NCBI RefSeq assembly: GCF_036924535.1
Contig: NZ_JAZHRT010000001.1
Coordinates: 2,418,001-2,482,000, forward strand
DNA length: 64,000 bases
Source of the DNA: Bradyrhizobium sp. AZCC 2262
GTDB taxonomy: Bacteria; Pseudomonadota; Alphaproteobacteria; Rhizobiales; Xanthobacteraceae
Reading direction: 5' to 3'
This document shows positions 524-29,815 of the stretch, one piece after another; the stretch's first letter is position 1, and each line of letters opens with the position of its first letter. The translations under genes and the position numbers were made by a program. Under the pieces are notes generated by a model. That model was not told the origin of the DNA. It did no database searches and worked only from the letters and a program-made list of their open reading frames with translations.

Positions 524-1297
524 ATGACCGTTGACCAAGCCTTAATTGCTATTATCGACAGCGACGACTCCATGCGAGCGCGATTGCGGATCTTGCTCGA
601 GGCGGCGGGCCTGAAAATCGAGCTCTTCAAATCGGCCGAAGAATATTTGAAGAGAAGCAAGTCTCATCCACCCAATTGCATCGTGCTAGACGTGCGGTTG
701 CCCGGCATAAGCGGTCTCGATTTTCAGTCCAGACAAGCAAAGACCGGACGCAAAACACCTTTAGTGTTTCTTACCGCTCAGAACGAAGTAAGGACATCCG
801 TTCGGGCGATGAAGGCTGGGGCCATAGAGTTTCTTACCAAGCCCTTTCAAGATGAAGAGCTGCTCGACGCGGTGAGAAGCGGCATAGAGCGTGATGTCGC
901 AGCGCGTTTGCAAAAGCAGATCTTGGACGAGCTTCGAACCCGGCTTGCATCGCTTTCGCTTCGCGAAAGGGAGACGATGGTGTTGCTTTCAGCAGGACAG
1001 GGACCCAAGCAGATCGCGGGCCAATTGGGTGTCTGCACGCATACGGCTCGCGTTCACAGTGGTCGAGTTCTGGTCAAGATGGGGGCACGCTCAGTAGCCG
1101 ATCTGGTGCGAATGGTGGATAGGCTGGAACATCTGTCTCGCGAAGGAAAAGAGCTTCGCTTTCGAGCTAACGCTAAGTGCCGTGTGACCAACCGCGACGG
1201 CGCTACCGTCCGACGTTCAGGCGCCCACACATGTCCTGATGGCCACTCAGTTGAGATCCGCGGCCAATTTATGCCGCCGGTCCCCTCACTATCCTGA
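524..1297 (+). CDS. FixJ/StyR/TodT-type response regulator with C-terminal extension
   Basis: A 257-residue two-domain regulator. The receiver (about 5-120) has the acidic pocket DSDD, phospho-acceptor Asp56 in VLDVRLPG, and Lys in FLTKPF. The LuxR-type helix-turn-helix follows (about 140-200, LSLRERETMVLL and KQIAGQLGV). Oddities: the recognition-helix region reads VHSGRVLVKMGARS where its paralogues here have VHR, and about 45 unrecognised residues follow the HTH. This family is phosphorylated by PAS-type histidine kinases and activates transcription. The kinase at 9716 and the kinase-hydroxylase fusion at 6116 are candidate partners (inference). Confidence 0.85.
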   Translation: MTVDQALIAIIDSDDSMRARLRILLEAAGLKIELFKSAEEYLKRSKSHPPNCIVLDVRLPGISGLDFQSRQAKTGRKTPLVFLTAQNEVRTSVRAMKAGAIEFLTKPFQDEELLDAVRSGIERDVAARLQKQILDELRTRLASLSLRERETMVLLSAGQGPKQIAGQLGVCTHTARVHSGRVLVKMGARSVADLVRMVDRLEHLSREGKELRFRANAKCRVTNRDGATVRRSGAHTCPDGHSVEIRGQFMPPVPSLS

Positions 1298-1343
1298 GGT
1301 CAGGACATTCTCGCCGGTGCGCGCTGGCCTGTGAACAGCGGAA

Positions 1344-1648
1344 TTAGATCACAAATGACTTCGGCATGGGACGCAGCTTGGCACCCTTTGGAAGAATTGC
1401 GAGGATTAGGTCATCAACGCCGAGCCCTCACCGTTGATCTGTTCTTTGATTGCTTCTGGACTGCCGGCGAACGCGAATCGTGGCACCAACTCGTCGGGAA
1501 TCAGCTGCGTAAGCTTAGCTTTCGTATGCCTGTCTCGCTCCAACTTGTAGGCTGTCCCCACATCTTCTGTTACACGTCGTGTCAGTCGGTCGACCGGCCC
1601 GGAATTGTCGCGCCTCTGATGGCGGCGCCTCGTCTCATTTCTCCGCAA
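1344..1648 (-). pseudogene. C-terminal remnant of a luciferase-like (LLM) flavin monooxygenase
   Basis: Read on the minus strand from 1648, the sequence contains DELVPRFAFAGSPEAIKEQI, the typical near-C-terminal motif of LLM-class flavin-dependent oxidoreductases. At about 1410 the frame shifts, and the alternative frame continues with GVDDLILAILPKGAKLRP to a stop at 1344-1346, which fits the usual C-terminal strand. The N-terminal three quarters are absent. It lies antisense in the region before the ammonium transporter, so it is a fossil rather than a working gene. Confidence 0.55.
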
Positions 1649-1795
1649 GAGAACTTCAACAGCGACAAGTTAACGAAAGCAGATTTTCACAAGCCTGCTA
1701 ATCATAAACAGATAAGTACTTTCCGACCTTGGCGGGTTACAACGTGGCGAGTTCGTTCTTGTCCACGGCTCCGCCAGCGCCCACGGGATAGCACC

Positions 1796-3187
1796 ATGTC
1801 GTTCCTGCTGAGAGGCGTCGGTTGGCGCTATGTGTCCGCGCTGATGGTGTCGTGCATCATCGCCTCGCCAGCCTGTGCCGGCGGAGCAAAGGCGCCCGAC
1901 ACGGGTGACACGGCTTGGGTGTTGGTCGCGTCGGCGCTCGTGCTGTTCATGACGCTTCCCGGGCTCGCGTTGTTCTACGGCGGCCTGGTGCGCGCGCGGA
2001 ATCTGCTCTCCGTACTGATGCATTGCTTCGTCATTTGCTGCGTGGTCTCGCTGCTCTGGGCAGCATTCGGCTACAGTCTTAGCTTCGGTCACGGCGGGGT
2101 GTTGATCGGTCCGCTCGACAACCCTTTCCTCGTCCATCTCGGCAACAAGGCGCTGCGCGGCAACTTGCCGGAGGCGGTGTTCGCACTGTTTCAGATGACC
2201 TTCGCCGTCATCACCCCTGCGCTCATAATCGGCGCGTTCCCGGAACGCGTGCGCTTTCCGTTTGTCCTGCTGTTCACGATGGGATGGTTCGTTATCGTCT
2301 ATTTGCCGGTTGCGCATTGGGTTTGGGGGGGCGGCTGGGCCGCGGCCGCGGGCGTCATCGATTTCGCCGGAGGCATCGTTGTCCACACCACCGCCGGCGT
2401 CAGTGCGCTGGTCGCGGCCCTCATGGTCGGCGCGCGCGCCGGCTTCCCGCGCCACGTGTTGCCGCCGCACAACCCGGGCATGACTGTGGCAGGCGCGGGC
2501 ATGCTGTGGGTCGGCTGGTTCGGCTTCAACGGCGGCAGCGCATTGGCGGCCGACGGCTCGGCCGGCATGGCCATTCTTGCCACGCATTTTGCCGCATCGG
2601 CGGCAGCGCTCACCTGGATGGCGGTCGAATGGCTTTGCGCAGGCAGACCGAGCTCGATCGGTCTCGTGACCGGCGCCGTCGCCGGCCTTGCCACCATCAC
2701 GCCGGCGGCGGGCTTCGTCGGGCCGACGAGTGCTATCGCCATCGGCGTGGCCGGCGGCGCCGTCTGCTTCCTGACCACGATTTTTGTCAAGCATCGGCTG
2801 CACATCGACGATTCGCTCGACGTCTTCTCCGTGCATGGCGTCGGCGGCATGCTCGGCTCCTTGCTGGTGGCGGTGTTCGTGGCGCGCACGCTGGGTGGCG
2901 TTGGCTACGCTGGCACGAACTTAGCAGGCCAGCTCGGCGCGCAAACGATCGGTATAGCCGCAGCGGCGGCGTGGTCGGCGCTGGCCACCGTCGCGCTCGT
3001 TAAGTTGGTCGGCGCCGCCGTCGGCGTCCGCGTCGAGGCGCAGGACGAATATGAAGGATTAGACTTCGCCTCGCACGGCGAGCGCGCCTACGACTACGGA
3101 CACTCCTCCGCGAGAAAGCCCCTTCGCCTTATGAGCCCCGAAGCGGAAACAGACCACTCTGCGGAGGTCAAGAAGAACCGCAGGTGA
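1796..3187 (+). CDS. amt: Amt/MEP/Rh-family ammonium transporter
   Basis: A 463-residue polytopic membrane protein for NH4+/NH3 uptake across the inner membrane. It begins with a signal-like hydrophobic segment ending near PACAGG, then shows the family hallmarks: LPGLALFYGGLVRARN in the first core helix, AVFALFQMTFAVITPALI, and the HTTAGVSALVAALMVG and GWFGFNGGSAL segments, with the C-terminal SVHGVGGMLGSLL helix. I chose ATG 1796 because the open frame further upstream (from 1331) reads unlike protein and overlaps an antisense LLM remnant. No glnK lies next to it, which is unusual for Amt. The cytoplasmic tail is long and charged. Confidence 0.9.
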   Translation: MSFLLRGVGWRYVSALMVSCIIASPACAGGAKAPDTGDTAWVLVASALVLFMTLPGLALFYGGLVRARNLLSVLMHCFVICCVVSLLWAAFGYSLSFGHGGVLIGPLDNPFLVHLGNKALRGNLPEAVFALFQMTFAVITPALIIGAFPERVRFPFVLLFTMGWFVIVYLPVAHWVWGGGWAAAAGVIDFAGGIVVHTTAGVSALVAALMVGARAGFPRHVLPPHNPGMTVAGAGMLWVGWFGFNGGSALAADGSAGMAILATHFAASAAALTWMAVEWLCAGRPSSIGLVTGAVAGLATITPAAGFVGPTSAIAIGVAGGAVCFLTTIFVKHRLHIDDSLDVFSVHGVGGMLGSLLVAVFVARTLGGVGYAGTNLAGQLGAQTIGIAAAAAWSALATVALVKLVGAAVGVRVEAQDEYEGLDFASHGERAYDYGHSSARKPLRLMSPEAETDHSAEVKKNRR

Positions 3188-3435
3188 ACGTCAGGAGCAA
3201 GTCATGACGGACAATAAGATACAATCGGCCACTTGCCGCGGAAGATGTGGGCGATGCTGGTTGGAATCTCACACGCGCGGAAAAGGAGGTTGCCGCGGTG
3301 GAGCTCAATGGCGCTGTCGCTCCTGCCCAGCCGCGGCTGCTTGTCACTGCTCACGCCATGAAGCAGGCGAGGCGTTGAATCTGCCGCAACTTCCGTAAGT
3401 CTGGAGGAATCTTCCACGTTCGTGACGAGGGTTCC

Positions 3436-3451
3436 TAGTACTCAGGTACTA
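3436..3451. promoter_or_regulatory. palindrome, candidate operator
   Basis: TAGTAC-TCAG-GTACTA is a perfect inverted repeat with 6-bp arms and a 4-bp spacer. It lies in the gap (3188-3540) between amt and the decayed receiver gene; I see no convincing gene in that gap. A dimeric regulator such as a FixJ/NarL-type protein could bind it, but no regulator is established. Confidence 0.3.
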
Positions 3452-3540
3452 TATCCAGGATAGCTGTTCCGTGACATCATCACTTTCGCTTCTAGAGAAC
3501 GTGAGAGCCGGTTATTTGTTACCGAGGATCGGACGAGCGG

Positions 3541-3726
3541 TTGAGAAAAATCCCGCTTGCAGCGATGATCGACGACGACTCTTTAACTCGGGCCGCCATT
3601 GATGGTCTCGTTAGGTAGCTTGGATTTTCAGCCAGCACGTTCGCATTGCCGAATCGTTTCTGCAGTCATCTTCGATGGGGAAACGGGATGCCTGATATTG
3701 GACGTGCAAATGCCAAAAATGCGCGG
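3541..3726 (+). pseudogene. decayed tandem copy of the receiver gene that follows
   Basis: These 186 bases repeat the first part of the receiver gene at 3727, from TTG through the phospho-acceptor segment. The copy has a TAG stop after about 25 codons (at VR*LGF) and two single-base losses relative to the intact copy, so it cannot encode a receiver. Both copies share long identical stretches such as the run encoding LILDVQMPK. It is a partial tandem duplication with one copy decaying. Confidence 0.8.
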
Positions 3727-4122
3727 TTGACAGAAATCCCGCTTATCTCGATCGTCGACGACCACTCTTTGATCCGGTCGGCCATTGAAGATCTCGTGAG
3801 ATCGCTCGGATTTTCAGCGTGCACCTTCGCATCAGCTGAATCGTTTCTGCAGTCATCATCGATGAGGGAAACGGGATGCCTGATATTGGACGTGCAAATG
3901 CCAAAAATGAGCGGGATAGACCTGCAGGACCACTTGTCTCAAAACGGCTTTGACATTCCGATTATCTTCATCACGGCCTATTCCGACGAGGCCACTAAGG
4001 AGCGCGCGCTGAGCGCCGGAGCTATCTGCTTCCTCCGAAAGCCATTAGACATCGGGCGTCGCCTTATCGACTGTCTTCACGCGGCGCTCGACAGAGGCAG
4101 GGGACCTGCTCCGGTGAACTAG
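3727..4122 (+). CDS. single-domain CheY-like response regulator
   Basis: A 131-residue receiver without output domain when started at TTG 3727. That start is preferred because the upstream part of the frame belongs to the decayed duplicate and reads out of phase with the receiver fold. Features: acidic pair in SIVDDHS, Asp55 in LILDVQMPK, Thr in IFITAYS and Lys in FLRKPL, so all switch residues are present. It points towards the 3' end of the minus-strand monooxygenase operon. It may act as a phosphate sink or relay for the kinases nearby (inference). Its closest relative in the window is the receiver at 13011. Confidence 0.8.
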   Translation: MTEIPLISIVDDHSLIRSAIEDLVRSLGFSACTFASAESFLQSSSMRETGCLILDVQMPKMSGIDLQDHLSQNGFDIPIIFITAYSDEATKERALSAGAICFLRKPLDIGRRLIDCLHAALDRGRGPAPVN

Positions 4123-4175
4123 TCCCTCAGTTGTTCAGGCGAACGAACGGCCTCCACGCGTCTCCTGCTCACCGT

Positions 4176-5201
4176 TCAGATCTCAACCGTATTGAGGCCG
4201 CATCGAGTCAAGAGGGCGTGGTGCGCTGTCCGCACTTTCGTTGCAACAGCCTGGGGTTGCAGCGGACGAGGTGCTTGTACAAACAGCTCGACCAAGCCTT
4301 CCATTCCCCGATACGCCAGCGGCGCCCAATGCTTGACCCACTGGTTGAGCAACTCTGTATTGGCGGGACGCTGCGCCACAGCATATTGGACCAGAGCTGT
4401 GGTCCAATCGCGGCTCCGCTCACTGTCAAGCTCAAAATCGTCAAGCATCAAGGCGAGCAGAGCATCTCCTTGAGCACGTGCCAGCTCAGCGAGCTGCACG
4501 TTGAAGAGGGCGTCGAAAACTGGCTTTACCGTCAGATTGAGCGCCGCAAAAGCCTCACCCCAGTCGTACGCGATAAGCATTTTTTCCACGGTTTCGCGCA
4601 GCGGTTGCCAAGCCGGATCTTCCTCCCAGCACTGCCGGGCGTGTGCGCTTGAGGCTAACTCCGCGTCATGCTCGAGTGAGAGCGACTTGGCCCGGTAGGC
4701 CACCCATTGAATACGGCGTAGCTCATCAGCGGCCTGAAAGTAGCCGGCGTTAGCGATGAATGATGAAGGTGCCAACTGCGCCATGTAGAGGCCGGTCATT
4801 TGCAAGGCATGCATGGGGAAGCGGGCAGGCAGATAAAGCCGCTTCAATAGGCGTACCCACTCTGTCTGAAGACTGGCATCGTGGTTGCGGCGTTCAAATT
4901 CTTCCACCAAGCTGCCTACGTAGCCCTCACGCTCGGCTTGTCGCTGCACGTAGACCTGATAGGTGAGCTGGTGTGGATCACGGAAGCCTTCCCAATCATC
5001 GGTGTGCAGGGGAGAACCTTCCCGATACTTTAGATACCAGGCGTTGATGGGCGTGTTTGGGTCAAGTTCAAAGGGAGCAGGCTGGCGGCCATAATGGTAG
5101 TGCAACCTGGCCGTGACGACCTCGTACTCAGTGGGTTTTCGGCGCACGTCGCCAAACAGACTCCACGTTTTGGCGGGCTCTCGCCTACGAGCCATTGCCA
5201 T
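4176..5201 (-). CDS. tmoE: toluene/alkene monooxygenase hydroxylase beta subunit (TmoE-like)
   Basis: The small structural subunit of a soluble diiron monooxygenase hydroxylase (alpha-beta-gamma dimer). Its 341 residues match the family length of about 330. The N-terminal KTWSLFGDVRRKPTEYEVVT block is characteristic, followed by the helical ferritin-like fold (QRQAEREGYVGSLVEEFERR) with no diiron ligands, as expected for beta. ATG 5201 is preferred over upstream in-frame codons because GGGAGG sits 7 bases before it, overlapping the end of tmoD. It is the last gene of the minus-strand operon; no reductase gene (tmoF) follows. Confidence 0.88.
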   Translation of the reverse strand: MAMARRREPAKTWSLFGDVRRKPTEYEVVTARLHYHYGRQPAPFELDPNTPINAWYLKYREGSPLHTDDWEGFRDPHQLTYQVYVQRQAEREGYVGSLVEEFERRNHDASLQTEWVRLLKRLYLPARFPMHALQMTGLYMAQLAPSSFIANAGYFQAADELRRIQWVAYRAKSLSLEHDAELASSAHARQCWEEDPAWQPLRETVEKMLIAYDWGEAFAALNLTVKPVFDALFNVQLAELARAQGDALLALMLDDFELDSERSRDWTTALVQYAVAQRPANTELLNQWVKHWAPLAYRGMEGLVELFVQAPRPLQPQAVATKVRTAHHALLTRCGLNTVEI

Positions 5202-5203
5202 GG

Positions 5204-5524
5204 CTAATCCTCCCGTTCGAGATACCACTCGAGTGCCTCATCGCCCACATAGCGCATCCGGCCGGCAAACCCGGACAAGGAACGTTCCAGATCGGCCAGT
5301 CGAAAGGAACGCCCCAACACGGCTTCCAGACTCTTACGGGTTACCCGGCAAAGCCGGGGAGTGTGGATACGCACATACCCGCCGCGGTCCTCGTACAGGA
5401 GTTCGGCGTCAGGATTGTCATCCTCAATAGCTATCAGCATTGCCTCGATGATCTCCTGGTCCATGCCACGTAGCACCGGGCCCACGAACCTTTGCGGTCG
5501 AACCGTTTCCATCGCCTTTCTCAT
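5204..5524 (-). CDS. tmoD: monooxygenase effector/coupling protein (TmoD-like)
   Basis: A 106-residue cofactorless effector that binds the hydroxylase and tunes its active site for O2 activation. The family signature appears as VGPVLRGMDQEIIEAMLIAI, EDNP-type acidic turn, GGYVRIHTP and a C-terminal LERSLSGFAGRM. The ATG overlaps the tmoC stop (ATGA, 5521-5524), so translation is probably coupled. tmoE starts 3 bases after the stop. Length and order match TmoD/TouD/TbuV-type proteins. Confidence 0.88.
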   Translation of the reverse strand: MRKAMETVRPQRFVGPVLRGMDQEIIEAMLIAIEDDNPDAELLYEDRGGYVRIHTPRLCRVTRKSLEAVLGRSFRLADLERSLSGFAGRMRYVGDEALEWYLERED

Positions 5525-5862
5525 CTGCTGCCCTGAGGAATACCCACGGAGATTGTCGAATCCTCTACCTTGACCGGGTAACGATGGAGCTGACAGTGTT
5601 TTGGATTCACGCCTTCGCCCGTCGACACATCGAACTGCCAAAAGTGGGCTGCGCAGGTAAGAATGTGCCCGTCGAGCTCTCCATCGGCGAGGATTGTCTT
5701 CTGGTGGGGACAATGTCCCTGATAGGCACAAATATTGCCACCGGCCAAGTGGACGAGGAGGATCAACTCGTCTCCTACTTGGACATCAGTTATATCACCT
5801 TCCCAAAGATCCCCCAGAGTAGTTACCGGAATCCACTGCAGTGTCGTATCCTGAGGCATCAT
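5521..5862 (-). CDS. tmoC: Rieske-type ferredoxin of the monooxygenase (TmoC-like)
   Basis: A 113-residue [2Fe-2S] Rieske protein that passes electrons from a reductase to the diiron hydroxylase. Ligands are visible: Cys51 and His53 in CPHQ, Cys70 and His73 in CAAHFWQFD. The FWQF stretch after the second pair matches the TmoC family. ATG 5862 follows GGAGGT by 5 bases. Its 5' end overlaps the 3' end of tmoB by 68 bases, much longer than usual. The stop overlaps the tmoD start. The missing partner is a FAD/[2Fe-2S] reductase (TmoF). Confidence 0.9.
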   Translation of the reverse strand: MMPQDTTLQWIPVTTLGDLWEGDITDVQVGDELILLVHLAGGNICAYQGHCPHQKTILADGELDGHILTCAAHFWQFDVSTGEGVNPKHCQLHRYPVKVEDSTISVGIPQGSR

Positions 5863-6100
5863 AAAACACCTCCACAAAACTCATCGACGGCATTACCGCC
5901 TGGGCAACCGTTTGGTCGGGCAGCAAGACCAAGCCATTATGTTGCACGCGCAGGGACGCATCTTGCGGCGGCAAGCGTCGGCCAATCACGTGATAGGCTA
6001 CCTTCTGAGCAACGACCTCCATCGTGTCCTCGTCATCTACTAGCACGAGCAACGTCGCAAAATCGCCGCGGAAAGCCGCCTGAAGCGGAACTGTGGCCAT
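5795..6100 (-). CDS. tmoB: monooxygenase hydroxylase gamma subunit (TmoB-like)
   Basis: A 101-residue protein with the ubiquitin-like fold of the TmoB family: VPLQAAFRGDFATLLVLVDD, VAQKVAYHVIGRRLPP and a C-terminal FVEVFYD strand. It forms the gamma part of the hydroxylase. Compared with TmoB (about 84 residues) it carries about 15 extra residues after VEVFYD, and these overlap tmoC in another frame; the extension may come from loss of the original stop. AAGGAGCG precedes the ATG, just after the alpha-subunit stop at 6116. Confidence 0.85.
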   Translation of the reverse strand: MATVPLQAAFRGDFATLLVLVDDEDTMEVVAQKVAYHVIGRRLPPQDASLRVQHNGLVLLPDQTVAQAVMPSMSFVEVFYDASGYDTAVDSGNYSGGSLGR

Positions 6101-6115
6101 ACGCTTCGCTCCTTG

Positions 6116-9076
6116 TTAGCCGGCGGACGCGGCTGCAGGTTGCTGCTGTTCAAAGGCCCAGGCATAGTTCATCGCGTCATCCCCTTGTTCGGCAGGGGAA
6201 AGGCCCATATAGGCCCGAACGCCCGCCATGTCAGGTGGCTGAATATGGCCGGCCACAAAGCGGTCAACGATCGACAGGTGGCCTGCGTAGCGTGCCGGAT
6301 TTTGCGCGAAGATCCACTTGCAGGGGTCTGAACAGAAAGTGTAGACGCGCCCGTTGTGCGTAACCTGCCGAGGGGGTGCACCGACCGTCGGGCTACACAC
6401 CGGCAGTTGGCAGATGTTGCACACACTCAAAAGCGTTTCCTGATGTGTGTGGCCGATGGTTCCCCGGCGCACATTCTCGGCGATGGTATGCCAATAGGTG
6501 CCAAATCGGTCGTGCCAGCCGGGGTACTTGGCTTCCAACCACTCACGCTCCGCCACGCTCACGCCTGCATCCGGATTCCACCAGACGGTGGGTCGCTTGA
6601 ACCAGACCCCCAAGTGGTATGAGTGGTGGAGCCAGTCCAATTCTTGCAGGAAAAGCTTCCAATACCACGGACGCTCCAGCCCGAGGTCTCGAAACTGATC
6701 AGTGAATTGTTTGACTATCCAGTCAAGCATAAACTCTTTGAAGGACATCCTGCGATGCTCAAGGGGCGTGTAATAATCCATGGACATGCCCGTCAAAAAG
6801 GCGAAGACACGCCACGAGCGCCAGAACGCCACATCGATCAACCGCTGGGCCTCGGCCTTCTTACCCTGCTGGATCAGCACGCGCAGTGTCGGCTCGCCCT
6901 GCTGAGCGTGGCGGGCTTCGTCGGTTTGGATGCTGGAGATCAGAGCGCCGAATGCTACATCACCTGTCTCCATGGCGTCGGCAGCCATGCCCAAAAATTG
7001 CAGGTTCGTGAATCCGGTTTCCACGGTAAAGGAGAGTTGGAGCGCTGTGGAGACAGCGTCGTTCGAAGTAAACACGTCATCAAAAAAATGACGGATGGCA
7101 ATCACACCCCACTCATTGGTGTGATGGCTTTTGTGCGCCCAGTCGAAGCGCGGCTCTTTGTTGAGCAGGGCGTGAGGAAAGGAGAGCTGAATTTGGCCGT
7201 GGCGCACTTCGTCCAACGTACCGAACAACGCCATGTTACGCCAAGCCGCGGCGCGCCCAAATCGGCCCATGCGAGCCTCACCGATGGAGGCCAGGTACTC
7301 GGGCATTGTGATGGCCCCGTAGTGCAAGATGATCGCGGATTTCCAGCCCGGGTCCAGGTTCTCAAAAAGCCTGGAGCGCACGATAGCTGACCGGACGGAG
7401 TACACCGCGGCGTCCTTCTCGGCCTGATTGCGGACGTACTCACCGTAACTGATCTTGTAAGGCTCATCCCAGGTCCACCAAGCGGCAGCGGGTATGCCAT
7501 GGCTCTGCGAGAGCGCTTCAGGGAAAACTTCTGCCTCTGACACGTACTTGAAGCGCCAATTCATGTCACGGCAGAGGTCGTACCACTCCGAGCGTTCAAG
7601 CTTCGGCTGCCGGCGATCAATTTGTTCGGTGCTTGGAAAGCCAGGAGGCTTGCCGCGCTCGCGAGTCACTCTCCCCTGTGTCGGTAACGTGAACTGAAAA
7701 GTCGCACCGGGGCCGTCATGAGAGGCGGTCCACAAGCGGCCGCCATGCGCTTCAACAATCGACCGGCAGATCGACAGGCCCATTCCCATGCCGCCGGGCT
7801 TGGTGGTGTAGAACGCGTCGAACAGGCGGTCTAAACTGTCCGGGCTCAGTCCAGGGCCGGAATCCTGGACGGTGACGAGCACCCCGCCCGATGCATCTTT
7901 CCTTGTCCCGATCAGCAACTGTCGCGAACCGTCACTTATGCAAGTCATCGCTTCGACGGCGTTGATGATCAAATTGAGCATCACTTGTTGCAGTTGCACC
8001 CGATCGCCTTGAACGAGCGGTAAGCTGTCTCCGAGTTGCGTTTGTACCGAGACTTTGTTCTTCAATACTTCGCCACGGGTCAGGGCGATAATCTCAAGTA
8101 CCGCTTCGTTGATTTTGAACGGATCTTTTCGAGGGGGCGCCTTCTTATAGAGGTCTCGAATCCGCTCGATGAAGTCGGTGGCTTGGGTGCCGGCGTCGAC
8201 GACACGACTGAGCGCCTGCCGCACTTCCTCCAGTGCTGGAGGCCGCTTGCCAAGCCAGTTGAACGCGGCCTCGGCACTGCCGACTGCCACCGCGATTGGC
8301 TGCTTGATTTCATGAGCAATGGACGCCGCTAGCTGCCCCATTGTGGCGACGCGATTGACATGCGCTAGCCCTGTCTGCGCCTCATGCAACGCTGCCGAAG
8401 CCTGCGTTAATTGGGCGGTCCGCTCCGCGACACGTTGTTCGAGTTCCTCATTGAGTCGCGCGATTTCAGCCTTCGCTCGCTTCAGTGTGGCGGTTTCGAT
8501 AATGTCCCAACCGCCAGATCGCCTTGCGATGGCAAACTGGTGCGTGCGCACCGTATCCAGGATTTCAAAAGGTCCGCACTCGCTAAGTGGGTACGTGCAA
8601 AGCACGGAGAGGCGCTGGTCGCCGATAAGCCCGTTGATACTCTCTTCGAGTTTGCAAAAATGTGCCCAATCCTTGTTGGTGAGCCAGCTCGTATCCCCAG
8701 TCACCCGCACACCCGTATAGCCCTTGCCCGATGTGCTAACGAGTTTCTCCTGCATCGTGGCTGCTACTCGTTTATCGTCAAAGGTGCCGCCCTGGAGAAA
8801 CAAGTCGCGCGAAGCTATGATTTCTATGCTGGACTTCGCCAAACAATGATCAAGATCGGGCACTACCTTTTGTAGAGCCCGCCTTGCCTGTTCAATTGTC
8901 AAGGGCTCAGCGACGATCCACAGGCAGTACTCCCCCCGCTCCAAACCCAACTTGCAGTATGAGACCAACGCGTCGAGGAGATCCTCTTTCGTCTCATAGA
9001 AGAGACAAAAGTGGCCGCCCCACGACACCATATCGCCAACGGCGTCGATTCCGCTCTTCGGTATGTCGATTGCCAT
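6116..9076 (-). CDS. MEDS-domain histidine kinase fused to monooxygenase hydroxylase alpha subunit (TmoA-like)
   Basis: A 986-residue single frame. Residues about 20-190 form a MEDS sensory domain (GHFCLFYETKEDLLDALV, LERGEYCLWI). A short coiled coil (195-240) leads to a complete histidine kinase core: His255 in SIAHEIKQP, N-box LNLIINAVEAM (368-378), DSGPGL (405-410), GMGLSICRSIV, ending near residue 466. A Met-free linker follows, then a full TmoA-type hydroxylase (about 495-986) with every diiron ligand by T4MO alignment: Glu593, Glu623, His626, Glu686, Glu720, His723, plus the gate Thr690. The first gene of operon A-B-C-D-E. An in-frame GTG at 7669 just after AGGGGAGA could also start a free 517-residue hydroxylase. 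The fusion is read directly; its function is inference. Confidence 0.85.
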   Translation of the reverse strand: MAIDIPKSGIDAVGDMVSWGGHFCLFYETKEDLLDALVSYCKLGLERGEYCLWIVAEPLTIEQARRALQKVVPDLDHCLAKSSIEIIASRDLFLQGGTFDDKRVAATMQEKLVSTSGKGYTGVRVTGDTSWLTNKDWAHFCKLEESINGLIGDQRLSVLCTYPLSECGPFEILDTVRTHQFAIARRSGGWDIIETATLKRAKAEIARLNEELEQRVAERTAQLTQASAALHEAQTGLAHVNRVATMGQLAASIAHEIKQPIAVAVGSAEAAFNWLGKRPPALEEVRQALSRVVDAGTQATDFIERIRDLYKKAPPRKDPFKINEAVLEIIALTRGEVLKNKVSVQTQLGDSLPLVQGDRVQLQQVMLNLIINAVEAMTCISDGSRQLLIGTRKDASGGVLVTVQDSGPGLSPDSLDRLFDAFYTTKPGGMGMGLSICRSIVEAHGGRLWTASHDGPGATFQFTLPTQGRVTRERGKPPGFPSTEQIDRRQPKLERSEWYDLCRDMNWRFKYVSEAEVFPEALSQSHGIPAAAWWTWDEPYKISYGEYVRNQAEKDAAVYSVRSAIVRSRLFENLDPGWKSAIILHYGAITMPEYLASIGEARMGRFGRAAAWRNMALFGTLDEVRHGQIQLSFPHALLNKEPRFDWAHKSHHTNEWGVIAIRHFFDDVFTSNDAVSTALQLSFTVETGFTNLQFLGMAADAMETGDVAFGALISSIQTDEARHAQQGEPTLRVLIQQGKKAEAQRLIDVAFWRSWRVFAFLTGMSMDYYTPLEHRRMSFKEFMLDWIVKQFTDQFRDLGLERPWYWKLFLQELDWLHHSYHLGVWFKRPTVWWNPDAGVSVAEREWLEAKYPGWHDRFGTYWHTIAENVRRGTIGHTHQETLLSVCNICQLPVCSPTVGAPPRQVTHNGRVYTFCSDPCKWIFAQNPARYAGHLSIVDRFVAGHIQPPDMAGVRAYMGLSPAEQGDDAMNYAWAFEQQQPAAASAG

Positions 9077-9715
9077 CGGGTCGTCCTCCGCTCTTCAGCT
9101 GAATAACGGCGAGGAGACAAACGCGCCTTTGCATGCAAACAAATTCGGAATCCCGTCCACGGCATACTGTCAATGAGTGCGTCAAATCGGGCGGCGAGAT
9201 CCTGAAGGAGCGCGACGATCTGGGGAAGGATCGCGCCTAAGAGGTGCGTCCGCATCGAGCCACGCACAGTTCCCTCCGTGGGCAAATTCCAGCTCCAACG
9301 AGTTCTGGGATGCCACGGCGGACTACTGGTCATTTTGTCGCAGATTAACAAATTTTCGGCGACCCAACCAGTGCTGGCCGAGCGGTTCCACGAAATAAGA
9401 GCAGGCCGTCAATGGCGCATCCAATGTCGACTTTCCGATGGTAAGATGTACGCTATCGCCAAAGTTGGATCGGAACGCTTCAATTCATTGGTTGGGCGAT
9501 TCTGTCAGGATCAATCGCTGCCGTTCAAGGGTGACGCCCACAACAAGGGCCCTTCGAACCTGAGTGGGATCTGCGCCTGCTCCTTGCGCTAGATTCATGA
9601 TACGTCGCACGAGGCAGAACCGACGCGCGCCGAAAGGAGATTGGTATGTAACTTGAGGACAAGCGTGACGGTTAAATAGTCTCTGCGCGGATACTGGACA
9701 CGAGATCAGCCACAA
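9077..9715. other. 640-base divergent intergenic region between the monooxygenase operon and the kinase gene
   Basis: Short frames exist on both strands, but none has a recognisable domain or a good ribosome binding site. This stretch must hold the promoters of the minus-strand monooxygenase operon (start 9076) and probably of the plus-strand kinase-regulator pair (start 9716). I could not assign a sigma-54 or FixJ-type site with confidence. Confidence 0.4.
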
Positions 9716-11920
9716 ATGACTCGTTTGAAGTCCAAGTCGAAGAAGAAAACGCGGACGGTAATCGGACGCTCAGATGCAACGCGCCAAAGGGGGCGATATT
9801 CCAAGAAAAAGATTGTGGTCGATGATCGCCACGTAGATTCCTCTAAACTGAGCGGAATTCGGCAGGGCCAAGGGGAGCCTTGGGACCAAGGCGGCCTAAC
9901 GCCCGAGCGGATCCGCAGCGTAAAGAAAAACATTATGGCTCAACGACGAGCCCAACGTCGTCGCATGGACGAGGTTAGAACCGCTTCGGAAGCCCTTTCG
10001 CACGAAATAGAGCAGTATAAACAAGTTCTGGACCGATCGCGGTTGCACCTCGAGGTCCTGCATAAATTGCCCGCGGTCGCATGGACGGTTACGCGGCATG
10101 GCAGCTGTGACTTTGTGAATCAATTCTACCTGGATGCGACCGGCCTATCGGCGGATTATTGCACGGCGCCGCTCAAAACGGGGAGAAAGACTCCGAGCGA
10201 TCTTCCGCCCTTTCTTTCCGTTTTGCATCCGGACCATCAGGAACGTGTGTCCCAAATATTTTGGGACGGCGTCCGATCAGGCGGAGGCTGGACGTTTGAG
10301 GCACCGTTTCTTCATGCAGACGGTTCCTATCATTGGCACTTTGATCGTGCGGTCCCGGTGCGGGACGCCCAAGGCAAGGTTCTCCGGTTCGTCGGCTCTA
10401 GTTCCGATATCCAGGAGTTGAGGTCGGAGAGGGACTCGTTGGTAGACAGGGAGAGACGCCTTCTCGCAATCATCGATGGTAGCCCCAACCCGATCTTTCT
10501 TAAGGACCCTGATGGTCGCTTTTTGCTGGTCAACAGAGAATTTGAAAGGATCACCGGCGTCTCCCGCGATCAGATTATTGGTAAAACTGAGGATGGCCTA
10601 TCTAGATTGCGCGAGGCGGGCGCGCTTCGAACGAACGATCGAGAAGTGCCTCTGTCGGGCGAGGTGATGCTCGAGGAGCTTGCTACAACCGATATGGGTA
10701 CACGCTGGGGCGCAGTTCAAAAGTTCCCAATCGTCGATGGGGACGGTCGAATCTATGCGACCGCTCACTTCACGACGGATGTCACAGCACACAAAAGAAC
10801 GGAGGAGCACCTCCGCCTGGCCGAGGACCAAACGCGGTCGATTTTGGATTCCTCCCTCGACGCTGTCATCACGATTGATGCACGTGATACAATTACCGGC
10901 TGGAGCAAAAGCGCCGAAGACATATTTGGATGGTCTTGCGAGGAAGCGGTCGGCAAGCGAATCGTGGATACGATCATCCCCATGCAGTATCGCGAGGCTC
11001 ATTCGCGAGGGTGTGAGCATTTTCTCGCTACCGGCGAAGGCCCGATACTAAACAGACGCATCGAAATAACGGCGCTCCATAGGGCTGGACATGAATTCCC
11101 CGTCGAGCTGACTGTCACGGCTATTCGGCTGGAATCTTGGCACTTCACCGCCTTTGTGCGCGACTTGACGGATAAGAGACGAGTAGAGGAGGCGCTACGC
11201 GGAGCGCGGGAAGAGCTGACCCGGGTGAACCGTCTTACCGCGATGGGGCAGCTGTCTGCGTCCATCGCTCACGAGATCAACCAACCTCTGACGGCCATTG
11301 CGGCCAATAGCGATACGTGCCTCCACTGGTTGAGCACGGAGGAGCCGGATCTCACCAAAGCGAGGGCAGCTGCCCAGCGGTTGGCCAAGGACGCGCGACG
11401 CGCGAGCGAGATAATCACCCGCATAAAGGCGTTGATGAACAAAACCCCGGTTGAAAAGGCCCCGCTCGATATTATGGACGCGATTCGTGATGTCATGAAG
11501 CTAACGCAAGGGGAATTTCGCAAGCATCGCATTACGACGCTTGCGGATCTGCACGAGTTGGTTCCGCGGATCAACGGCGACCGTGTCCAATTGGAGCAAG
11601 TCATTCTGAATCTCGTATTGAACAGTATCGAATCAATGATGCTTGTGGAGGATCGTCCAAGGACCCTTTCGATAAGGTCTCGGGTGCTGGATGACAGAAT
11701 GGTTGAGATCTCATTCCACGACACTGGCGTTGGACTCGATTCGACCGTGGCCGATCGACTCTTCGATGCGTTCTTCACGACGAAACACAATGGAACGGGT
11801 ATGGGCTTGGCAATTTGTCGTTCGATAATCGAAGCCCACGACGGACAGATTTCGGCGACCCCAGGTGCTCCATTTGGCGCAGTTTTCCAATTCAGCTTAC
11901 CCGTTGCAGATAGACCATGA
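9716..11920 (+). CDS. multi-PAS sensor histidine kinase
   Basis: A 734-residue cytoplasmic kinase with no membrane segment. The basic N-terminus is followed by a helical segment (about 80-110) and three PAS/PAC domains: about 115-235 (AVAWTVTRHGSCDFVNQFYL), 245-365 (PNPIFLKDPDGRFLLVN) and 375-490 (DAVITIDARDTITGWSKSAE). The kinase core has His519 in SIAHEINQPLTA, N-box LEQVILNLVLNSIESM, DTGVGL and GTGMGLAICRSII. No FixL-type heme-binding His is obvious. The stop overlaps the start of the FixJ-type regulator (ATGA), a strong sign that they are partners. The kinase core closely resembles the one fused to the hydroxylase. Confidence 0.9.
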   Translation: MTRLKSKSKKKTRTVIGRSDATRQRGRYSKKKIVVDDRHVDSSKLSGIRQGQGEPWDQGGLTPERIRSVKKNIMAQRRAQRRRMDEVRTASEALSHEIEQYKQVLDRSRLHLEVLHKLPAVAWTVTRHGSCDFVNQFYLDATGLSADYCTAPLKTGRKTPSDLPPFLSVLHPDHQERVSQIFWDGVRSGGGWTFEAPFLHADGSYHWHFDRAVPVRDAQGKVLRFVGSSSDIQELRSERDSLVDRERRLLAIIDGSPNPIFLKDPDGRFLLVNREFERITGVSRDQIIGKTEDGLSRLREAGALRTNDREVPLSGEVMLEELATTDMGTRWGAVQKFPIVDGDGRIYATAHFTTDVTAHKRTEEHLRLAEDQTRSILDSSLDAVITIDARDTITGWSKSAEDIFGWSCEEAVGKRIVDTIIPMQYREAHSRGCEHFLATGEGPILNRRIEITALHRAGHEFPVELTVTAIRLESWHFTAFVRDLTDKRRVEEALRGAREELTRVNRLTAMGQLSASIAHEINQPLTAIAANSDTCLHWLSTEEPDLTKARAAAQRLAKDARRASEIITRIKALMNKTPVEKAPLDIMDAIRDVMKLTQGEFRKHRITTLADLHELVPRINGDRVQLEQVILNLVLNSIESMMLVEDRPRTLSIRSRVLDDRMVEISFHDTGVGLDSTVADRLFDAFFTTKHNGTGMGLAICRSIIEAHDGQISATPGAPFGAVFQFSLPVADRP

Positions 11921-12648
11921 ATGACAGTGACCAGCCCATCGTTGCCGTCATAGACGATGACGAATCCGTCCGCGAAAGTTTGGGTGCACTTCTGGAAACT
12001 ATCTCCTTGAAGGTCGCGCTCTTCAAGTCAGTTGAGGCGTTTTTGGGCGCCAACCCTCCGGTACTACCGAGCTGTATCGTTCTGGATGTAAGACTTCCAG
12101 GAGCAAGCGGCTTCGAGCTGCAAAAACAGCTAGTCGCAGCTCACGTCGATACGCCGATTGTATTCATTACCGGCCATGGAGATATCCCGATGTCGGTACG
12201 GGCCATGAAAGCAGGTGCAATAGAGTTCTTGTCAAAACCTTTCCGGGAGCAAGAGCTACTCGACGCGGTACGCCAAGGGATCGAACGCCACCGTGCGCTC
12301 GCCGCGCAACGACGCGCCTCGGCGCAAATCCACGAGCGATTTGCGGGCTTGACCGATCGCGAAAAGGAAATCATGACCTTGCTTGCAAAGGGGCGCGTAA
12401 GCAAGCAGATTGCCGGCCAACTTGGCGTCAGCGAAGTGACTGTCCGCGTTCATCGTAACCAAATCATGCAAAAAATGGGCGCTCGCTCGCTGGCGGATTT
12501 GGTACGAATTGCGGACCGGCTCAAGACGGATGACGAAAACTCCTTGGACCCGGTCGCTGAAGGCCCCTACGATGAGCTGCCCCGCACGAGCCGCACAGCG
12601 AAGCACGTCACAAGGAAACAGAAGGGACGCGGCAATCTGGCGAAGTAA
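11917..12648 (+). CDS. FixJ/StyR/TodT-type response regulator
   Basis: A 243-residue regulator translationally coupled to the kinase gene before it. Receiver: DDDES pocket, Asp58 in VLDVRLPG, Thr in FITGHGD, Lys in FLSKPF. LuxR-type HTH: LTDREKEIMTLLAKG, KQIAGQLGVSEVTVRVHR, KMGARSLADLV. About 35 basic residues trail the HTH. Regulators of this type activate aromatic and alkene oxygenase operons in other bacteria (TodT, StyR, TmoT), so the minus-strand monooxygenase operon is the natural candidate target (inference). Confidence 0.92.
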   Translation: MNDSDQPIVAVIDDDESVRESLGALLETISLKVALFKSVEAFLGANPPVLPSCIVLDVRLPGASGFELQKQLVAAHVDTPIVFITGHGDIPMSVRAMKAGAIEFLSKPFREQELLDAVRQGIERHRALAAQRRASAQIHERFAGLTDREKEIMTLLAKGRVSKQIAGQLGVSEVTVRVHRNQIMQKMGARSLADLVRIADRLKTDDENSLDPVAEGPYDELPRTSRTAKHVTRKQKGRGNLAK

Positions 12649-13010
12649 CTCTCTGACCATCCCCGGGTAACCCATCGATGTGATTGCGGTGCGTTCCTCT
12701 CCGACCCCGTCACAGGCCTTGGATGGCTCCTCCATCTGGCGACACATTTTGCCCGGACTGCCTCGGCTTCGCGTCGCGCTCCCAATGAGTCCACCGCCAG
12801 GCCCCACGGGTCCGCGTCAGCTGATGAACTGAGGCCGGCGTTTTGCTTATGGCGGATAAGCGAAGTGGCGCGGGTTCTGAACTCGATCGTAGTTTGCCTA
12901 AACGATACGAAAGGGCTTTCCTCTCATTGTTTATTTACGACCACAAAATGGTGGGTACCGAAAGCCGGCTATGCGAGTTAAGTCAAGAGCTCCGAACATG
13001 GAGAACTCCG

Positions 13011-13448
13011 TTGAATACACTGCAGCTAATAGCAATCGTAGATGACGACGAGAACGTGTTGATAGCGATGCAGGGACTCGTCGAAACATTTGGTTACCGA
13101 ACTGCTGCCTTCGGCTCAGCGAACGAATTTCTGACGTCGGATGCGATAAATGATGCCGCCTGTCTGATCGTCGATGTGCAAATGCCTCAACTGAGCGGGA
13201 TCGAGCTTTTTCACACGCTCACGGCGACCAGATATCCGATGCCTGCGATATTCATCGCGGCCAATCCGAATCCCAAGGCCGAAAAGCGACTGCTCGAAGA
13301 AGGAGCGATCGCCTATTTGGCCAAACCTGTTAGAACGGAGGCCCTGCGTGCAAGCCTCCGTATGACAGCGCATCGAGCACCAGGGAGTGACAGTCATGAC
13401 AACGATTGGCGAAACTGCCCAATCCGCAAGCCGCATCAGCACCGCTGA
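13011..13448 (+). CDS. single-domain receiver protein with altered switch residue
   Basis: A CheY-like protein of 145 residues if started at TTG 13011, which has GGAGAA 6 bases upstream; earlier in-frame ATGs (such as 12948) add residues outside the receiver fold. Asp55 lies in LIVDVQMPQ and Lys in YLAKPV. The conserved Thr/Ser of strand beta-4 is Ala here (IFIAANP, against IFITAYS in the 3727 paralogue), which should weaken the normal phosphorylation switch. The last 17 or so codons overlap the next regulator gene. Upstream 12649-13010 holds no other gene I can support. Confidence 0.72.
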
Positions 13449-14082
13449 AGTCATTGTTCAGCCCATGGTCTACGTCGTTGACGATGATCGTCTCATCCGC
13501 GAGACGCTCAGCAGCCTGTTTCGATCGGTTGGCTTGCAAGTTCGGCTATTTGAGTCCGCTCAGGAATTATTGCGATCTAAACTGGAGGATGCTCCCAGTT
13601 GTCTCGTTCTCGACATCAGAATGCCACGTCTGAGCGGCTTTGATCTTCAAGCTGAATTGGCTAAGTCCAATATTTGGATCCCAATTATCTTTCTGACCGG
13701 GCACGGGGATATTTCAACGTCGGTAAGGGCGATGAAGGCTGGCGCGGTCGACTTTCTGACCAAGCCTTTCCGCGAGCAGGAGATGCTTGATGCGGTTACT
13801 GCCGCGCTCGAACGCGATCAAAAACGGTGCAACGAAGAGCGAGCCAACTCGGGTCTCCGAGATCGGTTCTCCATATTAAGCGTCCGCGAGCGCCAGATTA
13901 TGGCATTGGTGACGGGCGGCCTTATGAACAAGCAGGTCGCGAACAAGATCGGTTTAGCCCAGCAGACAGTGAAGATCCATCGGGGCAATCTCATGCGAAA
14001 AATGCACGCTAAATCGCTGGCCGATCTAGTTCTGATGGCAGAAAATCTCGGGATCCGTGGACGGGAGAAAGAGGAGAGCTAA
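13396..14082 (+). CDS. FixJ-type response regulator
   Basis: A 228-residue regulator starting at ATG 13396, preferred over GTG 13387 because AGGGAG lies 8 bases before the ATG. Receiver: VVDDDRL pocket, Asp73 in [11 protein letters not shown], Thr in FLTGHGD, Lys in FLTKPF. The HTH ([42 protein letters not shown]) matches NodW/NwsB/FixJ-type proteins of rhizobia. It overlaps the receiver gene in front by 53 bases, so the two are probably one transcript. Its cognate kinase could be either kinase in this region. Confidence 0.9.
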
Positions 14083-21591: not shown

Positions 21592-22353
21592 CTATCCTCC
21601 TGATGGACCGAATCGTTCTGTCTTGATGCTGAGAGGGTCAAATCCGAGTTCTACAAGAAGACCGGCAGCGGTCTCGACGAAGGTAGTGGGACCGCAAACA
21701 TAGATTTTCGGGTTGTGTGCGGGTGGAAACCAATTTGCTGAAAGCAAGCCTTTGTTGATTCTTCCCCGGTGGCCCGTCCAGTCCTTTGGTTGCTGGCGGG
21801 TAAGCGCGTAAGCAAGGCGAAAGCTGGAATCACGGCTCATCATCGCCGCAAGCTCGTCTCGGTAGACTATATCTTCCCAACTTCTAGCCGAGTAAATCAG
21901 CAAGGCTGGCGGGCGGCTTGGCCGCCTGTCGCGGTGACGAAGCATCGACATCAACGGCGTGATACCCGTTCCACCAGCGAGAAGATAAACCGGCTCCCTT
22001 GTTGCGCCAGTCCAGACGAAATATCCGCCGATAGGTCCCCGAAGCTCAAGTTGGTCGCCGACGCGTAGCTCATCCAGAAGATAGGGGGAAACCTCGCCAT
22101 CTTTCACTCGCTCCACGGTCAGCGCAAGCAATTCGTCTTCAGGTGGAGAGGCAATGGAATAGCTGCGCTGCGCTTGGTAGCCATCCTCGGCTGTGAGCCT
22201 GATATCGACGTGCTGACCCGGCAGGTGTCCTGGCCAGCTGACTGGCTGCAGCATGAGGCTCTTTACGCGGCGCGTTTCCACCACGACGTCGCGCACCTGA
22301 ACGAATTGCCACTCAAGCCGTTTGGGTGGAGAAGCGGGATTAGTCCCCGTCAT
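21592..22353 (-). CDS. FAD/NAD(P)-binding oxidoreductase
   Basis: A 253-residue reductase of the ferredoxin-NADP+ reductase family with no [2Fe-2S] domain. FAD site: RSYSIASPP. NAD-binding fold: LLAGGTGITPLMSML and the C-terminal KIYVCGPTTFVETAAGLL. It overlaps the 3' end of the molybdopterin gene by 14 bases and is followed by the DUF6510 gene. It presumably shuttles electrons between NAD(P)H and the molybdenum partner. It is also the only reductase in the window that might serve the monooxygenase, but its neighbours argue against that. Confidence 0.87.
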   Translation of the reverse strand: MTGTNPASPPKRLEWQFVQVRDVVVETRRVKSLMLQPVSWPGHLPGQHVDIRLTAEDGYQAQRSYSIASPPEDELLALTVERVKDGEVSPYLLDELRVGDQLELRGPIGGYFVWTGATREPVYLLAGGTGITPLMSMLRHRDRRPSRPPALLIYSARSWEDIVYRDELAAMMSRDSSFRLAYALTRQQPKDWTGHRGRINKGLLSANWFPPAHNPKIYVCGPTTFVETAAGLLVELGFDPLSIKTERFGPSGG

Positions 22354-25842: not shown

Positions 25843-25898
25843 ACCCTTCCTTCCTTTTGCCGGCGTCAAACCGCTCACTTTCAAGATTTGTGGAGCCG

Positions 25899-26810
25899 AT
25901 GTTCGAAGCAACACACCAGGGCAATTCTGGCGAGGACCTGAGTGATCCTGGAGCCTTCGGCGTGCGCGGAGGAAATGTGCGCGACGTCGATCTAGAGCGG
26001 GCTAACGGAGCCGGCCGGATCGTACTCACTGGCTCCGCGAACAGTACGCGAATCTCCGAAGTTTATCAGAAGTTTCCCATAGGCTTGATGTTTCCAAGGA
26101 TAGGAGACGAGATGGTGACAGAGGCCGTCATCGTAAACTCTTCAGGCGGCATCGCCGGCGGTGATCGTCTCGAAATTGAAGTGGTGGCGCTCAACAATGC
26201 ATCGGTCGCGGTCACAACACAGGCCGCGGAAAAGGTCTACAGGGCGTTGGATCGACCCGCGCGTATCGGGACAAAGTTGAAAGTGTGCAGCAGGGCAAAG
26301 CTCGCTTGGCTCCCGCAAGAAACGATTGTCTTTAATCAGGCGCGCATTCGTCGGCAGACGGAGATTGATCTTTGCTCAGGAGCCGAAGTGATTGCGCTCG
26401 AATGGATGGTACTCGGTCGTGCTGCGCGCGGAGAGGAAGTCGTCAGCGGGTATATATCGGACAGCTGGCGCATCAAAAAGGACGGCCACCTCATCTGGGT
26501 GGACGGCTTCCGCGTCTCAGACGAGGTGTTCGCGCAGCTGCACAGAAAGGCATTGCTCTCCAACTGGAAGGCCGTTGCAACGCTCATCTACTTCGGACCT
26601 GGTCTTGATACACGGCTGAGGATCTTGCGCGAGATAGCGACTTCGCTCGATTGCAGCTGCGCCGCTACGATCGTCGGGGCGATCATCATTGTGCGCGTCG
26701 CCGCGGCGGCAAGCTCCGATCTTCGACGGGGACTTCGTAGCTTGCTGGAACAATTCAGTCGAGAGCTAGGGCCAGGCCCTTTCGGAGTGCCGAAAATGTG
26801 GTCGTGTTAG
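25899..26810 (+). CDS. ureD: urease accessory protein UreD
   Basis: A scaffold that binds apo-urease and, with UreF and UreG, delivers nickel. ATG 25899 is chosen because GGAG lies just upstream; the open frame to 25857 adds nothing conserved. The 303 residues include [20 protein letters not shown] and [12 protein letters not shown], the conserved UreD core, and [17 protein letters not shown]. It is the first gene of the operon ureD-A-J-B-C-F-G. The C-terminus ([11 protein letters not shown]) is typical. Confidence 0.93.
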
Positions 26811-26835
26811 CGGCCGTTATGGAACGGAGAAGGCC

Positions 26836-27138
26836 TTGAATCTTACACCACGGGAAAAGGACAAGCTAATGATAGCTGTCGCAGCGATGGTTGCGCGAGG
26901 GCGGCTCGCGAGAGGCCTCAAGCTCAATTATCCCGAGAGTATCGCACTGATTGCGGACTTCATCCTGGAGGGAGCGCGCGACGGGAAATCGGTCGCCGAA
27001 CTCATGTCCCAGAGCGGCCGAGTACTGACTCAGGACCAAGTCATGGAGGGCATTCCCGAAATGATTCGCGAGATGCAGGTCGAAGCCACATTCCCTGACG
27101 GAACGAAGCTTGTGCCGGTACACAGTCCGATTCGATAG
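26836..27138 (+). CDS. ureA: urease gamma subunit
   Basis: A 100-residue structural subunit with the whole family pattern: [40 protein letters not shown] and [19 protein letters not shown]. The start is TTG 26836, with GGAGAAGG 5 bases upstream; no ATG fits the conserved N-terminus. It lies 25 bases after ureD. Unlike most bacteria, the next gene is a nickel permease, not ureB. Confidence 0.96.
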
Positions 27139-27147
27139 GAGCTCTCG

Positions 27148-27720
27148 ATGCGGTTAGTCCTGATCTGCATTATGTTGTCCGAAGCGTTGATCTTCCCGGC
27201 CTGCGCCCATACCGGTGTTGGGCCCGGTAATTCGTTCAGCTCCGGAGTTGCGCATCCTCTGAACGGGGCAGATCACCTCATCGCTATGACGATGGTAGGC
27301 CTCTGGAGTGTGTTCACAGGTCCCCGTGCCGTTGTGATGTGGCCGGCAACCTTCGTTGCAGCGATGTTGGGCGGCTTTGCAGCAGCGAGCTTGGGTTTGC
27401 AAATCGTTTTCGTCGAGCCGGCCATCTGCTGGTCGGTCGTCTTGCTGGGAGTGCTCGTTGCGCTCGGAGTACGGGCGCCGGTAGCCCTGGGGGCCGTGAT
27501 CGTCGGTCTCTTCGCGTTCTTCCATGGGCACGCTCATGGAACGGAGGCAGCGGCAGCCAGGCTTATCCCTTATGCAGCAGGTTTCGTGCTCGCAACCTCT
27601 GCGCTCCTTGCTGTCGGCATCGGAGCTGGTTTCTGCGTGCGGGGCTTGGTCGGAGGGCTCTTGCTGCGCGCAGCGGGTGGATGCGCGGCGGTGGTCGGAT
27701 TGTCGCTATTGGGAGGCTGA
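27148..27720 (+). CDS. HupE/UreJ-family nickel permease
   Basis: A 190-residue membrane protein with a signal-like first helix and about six helices. The HupE/UreJ motif [19 protein letters not shown] and the histidine cluster [11 protein letters not shown] are clear. Such proteins supply nickel to hydrogenase or urease. Its insertion between ureA and ureB, with 9 bases before it and GTG of ureB 1 base after it, shows that it belongs to the urease operon. It may compensate for the missing nickel chaperone UreE (inference). Confidence 0.9.
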
Positions 27721-27721
27721 C

Positions 27722-28063: not shown

Positions 28064-28072
28064 GGTAACAAA

Positions 28073-29776: not shown

Positions 29777-29815
29777 TATGCCGACGCGTGCTCATAAGCG
29801 CAATGGACGAATATC

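Follow-up and report, generated by a model that had tools for sequence, protein, structure and literature searches.

The gene studied here lies in a stretch of 64,000 nucleotides from the genome of Bradyrhizobium sp. AZCC 2262, which we call the window. On the minus strand (positions 6116-9076) a single open frame of 986 residues joins a MEDS sensory domain and a histidine kinase to the alpha subunit of a TmoA-type diiron monooxygenase hydroxylase. Kinase and catalytic subunit are thus physically joined in one frame, as a preliminary description of the sequence had claimed. The domains and their key residues are intact, the alpha subunit has lost its own start codon, and related kinases are found on the beta subunit (TmoE) of the nearest related enzymes. 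Hydrocarbon-oxidising bacteria are usually described as sensing their substrates via separate regulators. In the related operons described here the enzyme itself incorporates a sensor kinase, attached in either of two ways.

The fused gene and its joint

The frame had been described as uninterrupted, and we found it open along all 986 residues. The MEDS match covers profile positions 2-161 of 161, i.e. the whole Pfam model, and is followed by both kinase domains with their motifs: the phospho-acceptor His255, the N-box Asn372, Asp405, Gly407 and the glycines 429, 431 and 433. The claim of a MEDS domain plus a complete kinase (His255, N-box, G-boxes) was therefore confirmed down to the residues. 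No PAS or receiver domain was found by Pfam in the 986 residues (E 0.001). The hydroxylase half contains a Phenol_Hydrox domain (residues 507-737) and a YHS domain (residues 892-933), the latter absent from the preliminary description. The six diiron ligands named there (Glu593, Glu623, His626, Glu686, Glu720 and His723) are all present with exactly that numbering, and aligning the protein with 17 TmoA relatives places all six in columns that are at least 90% alike. Against solved structures the alpha part scored 622 bits with ToMO (1t0q) and 619 bits with T4MO (3dhg) over 487 residues, and the best-scoring chains for the kinase part were FixL chimeras (4gcz, 8a3u) at 159 bits. With the Phenol_Hydrox fold, the six ligands and TmoB, TmoC, TmoD and TmoE encoded downstream, the alpha part is by its sequence a group-2 soluble diiron monooxygenase (SDIMO) hydroxylase, of the toluene monooxygenase kind, for which oxygenation of aromatics or alkenes is predicted. 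The proportion of guanine plus cytosine at third codon positions is 0.62-0.76 throughout the frame, compatible with coding on either side of the joint.

The TmoA relatives L045 and P0039 begin with MPKLERS, and at the position of their Met1 the fusion has Gln490 (CAG), with no ribosome site visible upstream of it. The in-frame start-like codons near the joint are TTG448, GTG470, ATT486, ATG505 and GTG512; the first lies within the kinase domain and the last two within the alpha domain, and GTG470 has a purine stretch merely 1 nt away. The start of the whole fused gene is good, judging by a GGAGGA motif 7 bases before its ATG. Because the alpha part has lost its own start codon and a ribosome site is not visible, the hydroxylase is probably made only as a fusion, and a separate alpha product seems unlikely. 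The unfused kinase L041 of the same genus can be aligned up to residue 485, so that the fusion has cost hardly more than the stop of the kinase and the start of the alpha subunit. An open frame across a joint of about 20 residues is by itself not improbable; we consider the fusion more than chance because the two halves are each complete and share a single frame, a good alpha start is gone and dozens of comparable fusions exist. Both structure models obtained were weak (mean pLDDT, the predicted local distance difference test, of 65.4 and 58.6), and only the first was used, for the order of elements, which is the expected one, and for the low-confidence joint (pLDDT below 50 at residues 463-491). 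The joint is short and, according to this model, probably flexible, which favours a tether over a rigid path that would report the catalytic state directly.

Related fusions and the origin of the kinase part

Among the matches listed, the full-length fusion was found in one of 265 genomes of the genus, this one alone, with three matches scored per genome. Also among the matches listed, unfused TmoA (50-67% identical) was seen in nine other genomes of the genus, and unfused MEDS kinases (64-68% identity) in three. The tmo operons of those nine showed no MEDS or kinase match within about 9 kb on each side (tblastn, E up to 1e-5), so that the MEDS kinase is not simply a constant tmo neighbour; nor was a link to tmo found among the neighbours of the unfused same-genus kinases (ten by Pfam, plus a tblastn map). 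We also searched a database of 5.8 billion proteins with the alpha part, scoring the 8000 candidates that shared most words with it, and none of the 40 matches was a second kinase-alpha fusion. These protein searches accept proteins of 0.55-1.75 times the query length, for the alpha query about 542-1725 residues only. The closest case, P0039 (700 residues), has kinase domains together with an N-terminal alpha piece of 98 residues (88% identical to the window, 86/98) followed by a C-terminal TmoE piece; it could reflect a genuine deletion or an assembly error, and was not counted among the kinase-alpha fusions. By eye, P0037 and P0040 resemble chimeric or frame-shifted predictions. Other matches were TmoA-MmoB (P0022, P0036) and TmoA-Rieske (P0038) proteins.

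The search for the same architecture elsewhere, proposed in the preliminary description, thus gave no second kinase-alpha fusion and did reveal the same kind of kinase on the beta subunit. With the MEDS part as query there were 1285 matches; from 120 listed ones and others we gathered 159 proteins, of which 42 (among the matches listed) combine a hydroxylase subunit with a MEDS kinase, and TmoE was the best-scoring hydroxylase part of every one of the 42. In a further search, made with the TmoE part of P0098, one of these proteins, 43 of the 51 matches were full-length TmoE-MEDS-kinase fusions, some with PAS domains between MEDS and kinase. The remaining eight were P0128, P0082, P0167, P0069, P0065 and P0169, with a partial TmoE, plus P0039 and P0168. 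The last of these, on a 119-kb contig, has a TmoE part, PAS domains and a kinase without MEDS, and is possibly a further, independent fusion type. Relative to the window, the 43 fusions are 70-81% identical in TmoE, and in the TmoE-kinase fusions the MEDS is 61-68% and the kinase core 41-67% identical. All 43 keep the eight kinase positions checked, and the TmoE parts diverge to as little as 69% pairwise identity without loss of the fusion. Their joints are short, with -5 to 20 residues between the equivalents of TmoE residue 340 and of window residue 1. The joint of P0042 reads VTPMATE and the leader of the unfused MEDS kinase L042 reads VTPMTTE, a resemblance that suggests read-through fusion of adjacent genes. 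Some of these proteins (P0042, P0098, P0046 and others) are annotated solely as toluene monooxygenase system protein E and some solely as signal transduction histidine kinase.

By its architecture the window gene stands outside this family, its TmoE being a separate frame of 350 residues. That it might be a unique oddity is ruled out by the 43 clusters. Among the compared tmo loci the nearest unfused TmoE is that of L045 (61% identical). Genome searches with TmoE-kinase (E up to 1e-110) or TmoE (E up to 1e-80 and 1e-60), in overlapping sets of genomes, gave no TmoE above 49% identity other than the window's own, and a scan of viral contigs with the TmoE-kinase alignment gave no relative.

Two histories can be considered for the kinase of the window: a separate fusion, or relocation, in which the kinase would first have been joined to TmoE and then moved before tmoA, for example if the operon was duplicated in tandem and then lost its outer parts. 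In the TmoE tree, built without the short pieces P0128, P0039, P0167, P0168, P0082, P0065 and P0069, the window lies inside the clade of fused TmoE with 100/97 support (35 fused rows plus the window), as relocation would have it. Yet a topology with the fused TmoE as a clade of their own excluding the window was not rejected by the approximately unbiased (AU) test (p-AU 0.369, run without L049_11, L066 and L044). The best MEDS tree also speaks against relocation, since it sets the window outside the main TmoE-fused clade (SH-aLRT, the Shimodaira-Hasegawa-like approximate likelihood ratio test, 98), with the unfused P0041 nearest (72%); the window and that main clade as a whole are grouped weakly, with 92 and 67 in two MEDS trees. 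Nesting of the window MEDS in the fused clade was rejected by two AU tests (p-AU 0.0019 and 0.0001), all MEDS AU tests being run without P0167, L069 and 63 others of the 134 MEDS rows. A control showed that the five fused rows of the first nesting test form a doubtful clade even when the window is left out (p-AU 0.087), and the second test of this pair is open to the same objection. In clean tests, with the clade less P0095 (p-AU 0.143) or with P0066, P0039 and P0169 (p-AU 0.054), nesting was not rejected. A separate origin as proven by AU rejection was withdrawn after the control and these clean tests.

In identity the kinase core is closest to same-genus and unfused MEDS kinases (L016 74%, P0084 73%, L041 72%, P0041 72%), a point against relocation, as is the failure to find a MEDS remnant behind tmoE. 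In the tree it belongs to a supported set of 44 rows (SH-aLRT 99) whose sole TmoE-fused kinase is P0066, which is near the window in the TmoE tree also. Together with the TmoE tree, with the alpha piece of P0039, which sits in a protein with TmoE and kinase parts, and with the clean MEDS tests, this is what can be said for relocation, a history that fits any functional reading and that we hold to be quite unlikely. Separate fusion and relocation of a P0066-like kinase are both possible, and the trees lean to a separate fusion without proving it. Furthermore, a second small group of MEDS kinases with a TmoE tail (P0065, P0069, P0082) is placed apart from the main clade by the MEDS tree. On supported branches the label "TmoE-fused" needs a minimum of five changes in the kinase-core tree and three in the MEDS tree, which suggests a more frequent exchange of kinase cores than of the joint between TmoE and MEDS, and that fusion, or the exchange of cores, took place repeatedly.

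The operon and its neighbourhood

Behind the alpha part, on the same strand and with the expected Pfam domains, come the genes of TmoB, TmoC, TmoD and TmoE (Table 1). The order A-B-C-D-E given in the preliminary description, and called otherwise normal there, stands, with the correction that no TmoF-type reductase was seen among the subset of window frames scanned with Pfam. The nearest FAD/NAD reductase seen lies at 21592-22353, beside a molybdopterin oxidoreductase. In the TmoD frame the MmoB/DmpM domain occupies residues 82-170, and the true start is probably inside the frame. In 9077-9730 there was neither a sigma-54 pattern nor a whole tod-box. Sigma-70-like sites numbered four in 3500-9800 (2.4 expected), all on the other strand. 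No MEDS remnant was found after tmoE.

Five receiver-domain regulators surround the operon, within 524-14082. A partial tandem duplication (3537-3914) lies within and ahead of a receiver gene, with copies of 110 nt 79% alike and 186 nt apart, and copies of 49 nt 98% alike and 188 nt apart. In addition, urease genes (UreD, urease alpha, UreF, UreG-like) are found at 25857-31182 of the window.

Table 1 Features of the fused gene, its operon and the adjacent regulators (positions in the window)
Feature	Position	Strand	Basis or remark
Fused gene MEDS-histidine kinase-TmoA, 986 residues	6116..9076	minus	Frame list and Pfam
Ribosome-binding-like GGAGGA	9084..9089	minus	7 nt ahead of ATG at 9076; read from sequence
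MEDS sensory domain, residues 22-180	8537..9013	minus	PF14417, E 1.2e-39
HisKA dimerisation/phospho-acceptor domain, residues 246-312, His255	8141..8341	minus	PF00512
HATPase_c kinase domain, residues 357-467	7676..8008	minus	PF02518
Joint, residues 468-489	7610..7675	minus	Sequence alignment; pLDDT <50 at 463-491
TmoA-type hydroxylase alpha subunit, residues 490-986, six diiron ligands	6119..7609	minus	
TmoB, hydroxylase gamma subunit	5795..6100	minus	PF06234
TmoC, Rieske ferredoxin	5521..5877	minus	PF00355
TmoD, effector	5204..5731	minus	PF02406
TmoE, hydroxylase beta subunit, unfused	4176..5228	minus	PF02332
Histidine kinase with several PAS domains, divergent	9716..11920	plus	Pfam
FixJ/LuxR-type response regulator, candidate partner	11917..12648	plus	Pfam
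Receiver-only response regulator, candidate partner	12843..13448	plus	
Second FixJ/LuxR-type response regulator, candidate partner	13387..14082	plus	
Receiver-only response regulator, convergent with tmoE, candidate partner	3646..4122	plus	Pfam
Receiver-domain regulator further off, candidate	524-1297		

Possible functions and comparison with known systems

We favour, tentatively, the reading of the fusion as an enzyme-tethered sensor kinase that would sense locally, at the enzyme. One polypeptide would hold a soluble MEDS-histidine kinase, a short flexible joint and the alpha subunit of a group-2 diiron monooxygenase; the MEDS domain would bind the hydrocarbon substrate, or the oxidised product, where it is consumed or made, and the kinase would phosphorylate a nearby FixJ-type regulator and so set the expression of the operon. 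In hydroxylases of the toluene monooxygenase type the subunits form (alpha-beta-gamma)2 dimers, and histidine kinases are dimeric too; a kinase on either of the large subunits would therefore be present as one dimer for each hydroxylase dimer. The idea of the preliminary description that sensing, or catalytic state, is coupled to gene regulation through the fusion is plausible, and the recurrence of kinase fusion suggests that the tie between sensor and enzyme is useful rather than accidental. MEDS matches also lie divergent from tmoA in four of 17 compared loci with a full tmoA, the actinobacterial L053, L058, L060 and L061, and Pfam agrees on MEDS in three of the four divergent frames tested. 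MEDS proteins have links to hydrocarbon oxidation: EtnR2, a MEDS protein encoded upstream of etnABCD, the genes of an SDIMO, has been proposed as a regulator (PMC8784404), and EtnR1/EtnR2 are stated to detect the epoxide product (PMC11507031).

Several points weigh against a tethered sensor. The kinase-alpha form was found in one genome, one of 265 in the genus among the matches listed; the TmoE-kinase fusions are known here as protein sequences, and the length filter kept unfused TmoE of the fused clade from appearing in the protein searches; and we infer the ligand, the partner regulator and the benefit of the tether. Besides, 28 of the 40 alpha-search matches bear a TmoB domain too, so that non-regulatory subunit fusions are common in such operons. 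These matches, with the TmoA-MmoB and TmoA-Rieske proteins and the single genome, speak for a neutral fusion, in which a deletion joined a kinase gene to tmoA and the halves act independently with the tether idle. We think this unlikely, as MEDS kinases occur both at the alpha N-terminus and at the beta C-terminus, the beta form has been kept across 43 clusters, and the nine same-genus tmo operons lack a nearby MEDS or kinase match. An assembly or sequencing artefact joining two genes would also explain why the fusion is seen in a single genome. Misassembly as the source of the joint is formally conceivable, and an artefact of either kind is very improbable: the genome is a single contig of 9.48 Mb, 100% complete, a base-calling error alone would need a stop removed and the alpha start turned to CAG, and comparable fusions exist. 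Chance or artefact was set aside for the latter reason and for the lack of a good tmoA start at the joint.

A different proposal is that the hydroxylase provides the sensory input, with substrate, reduction or TmoD binding moving the dimer and thereby the kinase, so that turnover would control expression in the manner of Ks-Amt5. The kinases on hydroxylase subunits in 43 clusters besides this gene, the short joints of the TmoE form and the kinase without MEDS of P0168 agree with it, and in PMC5764959 a transporter module serves as sensor of a kinase. The hydroxylase of the window protein, however, is attached behind the C-terminus of the kinase's catalytic domain, and the probably flexible joint of the model would be a poor conformational route; a dedicated MEDS sensor is also there. 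We judge this reporter of catalytic state rather unlikely. Wider, and somewhat unlikely as a whole, is the possibility that the hydroxylase itself is a two-component receptor, carrying MEDS kinases on alpha (here) or on beta (the 43 clusters), by separate fusions or relocation, with P0168 maybe as another type, and that turnover or product sets the kinase output; if true, such proteins would make up a general class of hydrocarbon sensors built from enzyme and kinase. Should the tether of the favoured sensor kinase matter, local sensing of product or turnover could be tested in a system that is soluble and well studied and for which hydroxylase structures have been solved, and nature would offer a design for hydrocarbon biosensors.

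Open-access literature, a coverage that excludes most subscription journals and bioRxiv preprints, gave, among the records listed, no account of a histidine kinase joined to a subunit of a diiron monooxygenase and no printed description of the TmoE-MEDS-kinase fusions. Closest to the window gene are these latter (P0042, P0098, P0046 and others; metagenomic and other databases), with the same enzyme type and MEDS-kinase family and with the kinase on the beta C-terminus instead of the alpha N-terminus. T4moH (3dhg) and ToMOH (1t0q) share the operon order A-B-C-D-E; their alpha subunits are single proteins of about 500 residues in the PDB, whereas that of the window is fused, and a reductase gene beside the operon was, in the window, not seen among the scanned frames. 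In TodS/TmoS with TodT/TmoT, a sensor kinase governs toluene oxidation genes via a LuxR-type regulator, and TodS itself, a protein apart from the enzyme, is a hybrid kinase of several domains, PAS sensors and a receiver among them. The window protein differs in having MEDS, no receiver (so it is not a hybrid kinase) and a kinase fused to the enzyme. Its kinase core is of the FixL type, and Pfam found no PAS domain in the window protein. EtnR1/EtnR2 and DcmR resemble it as MEDS proteins adjoining an SDIMO or other hydrocarbon-oxidation cluster, and EtnR2 is separate from its enzyme (PMC8784404 and PMC11507031). Kinases fused to other proteins are already known. In Ks-Amt5, according to PMC5764959, a histidine kinase is fused to an ammonium transporter, of a family handling the signal molecule; that is a membrane transporter turned sensor, whereas the window protein is a soluble enzyme keeping all its metal ligands.

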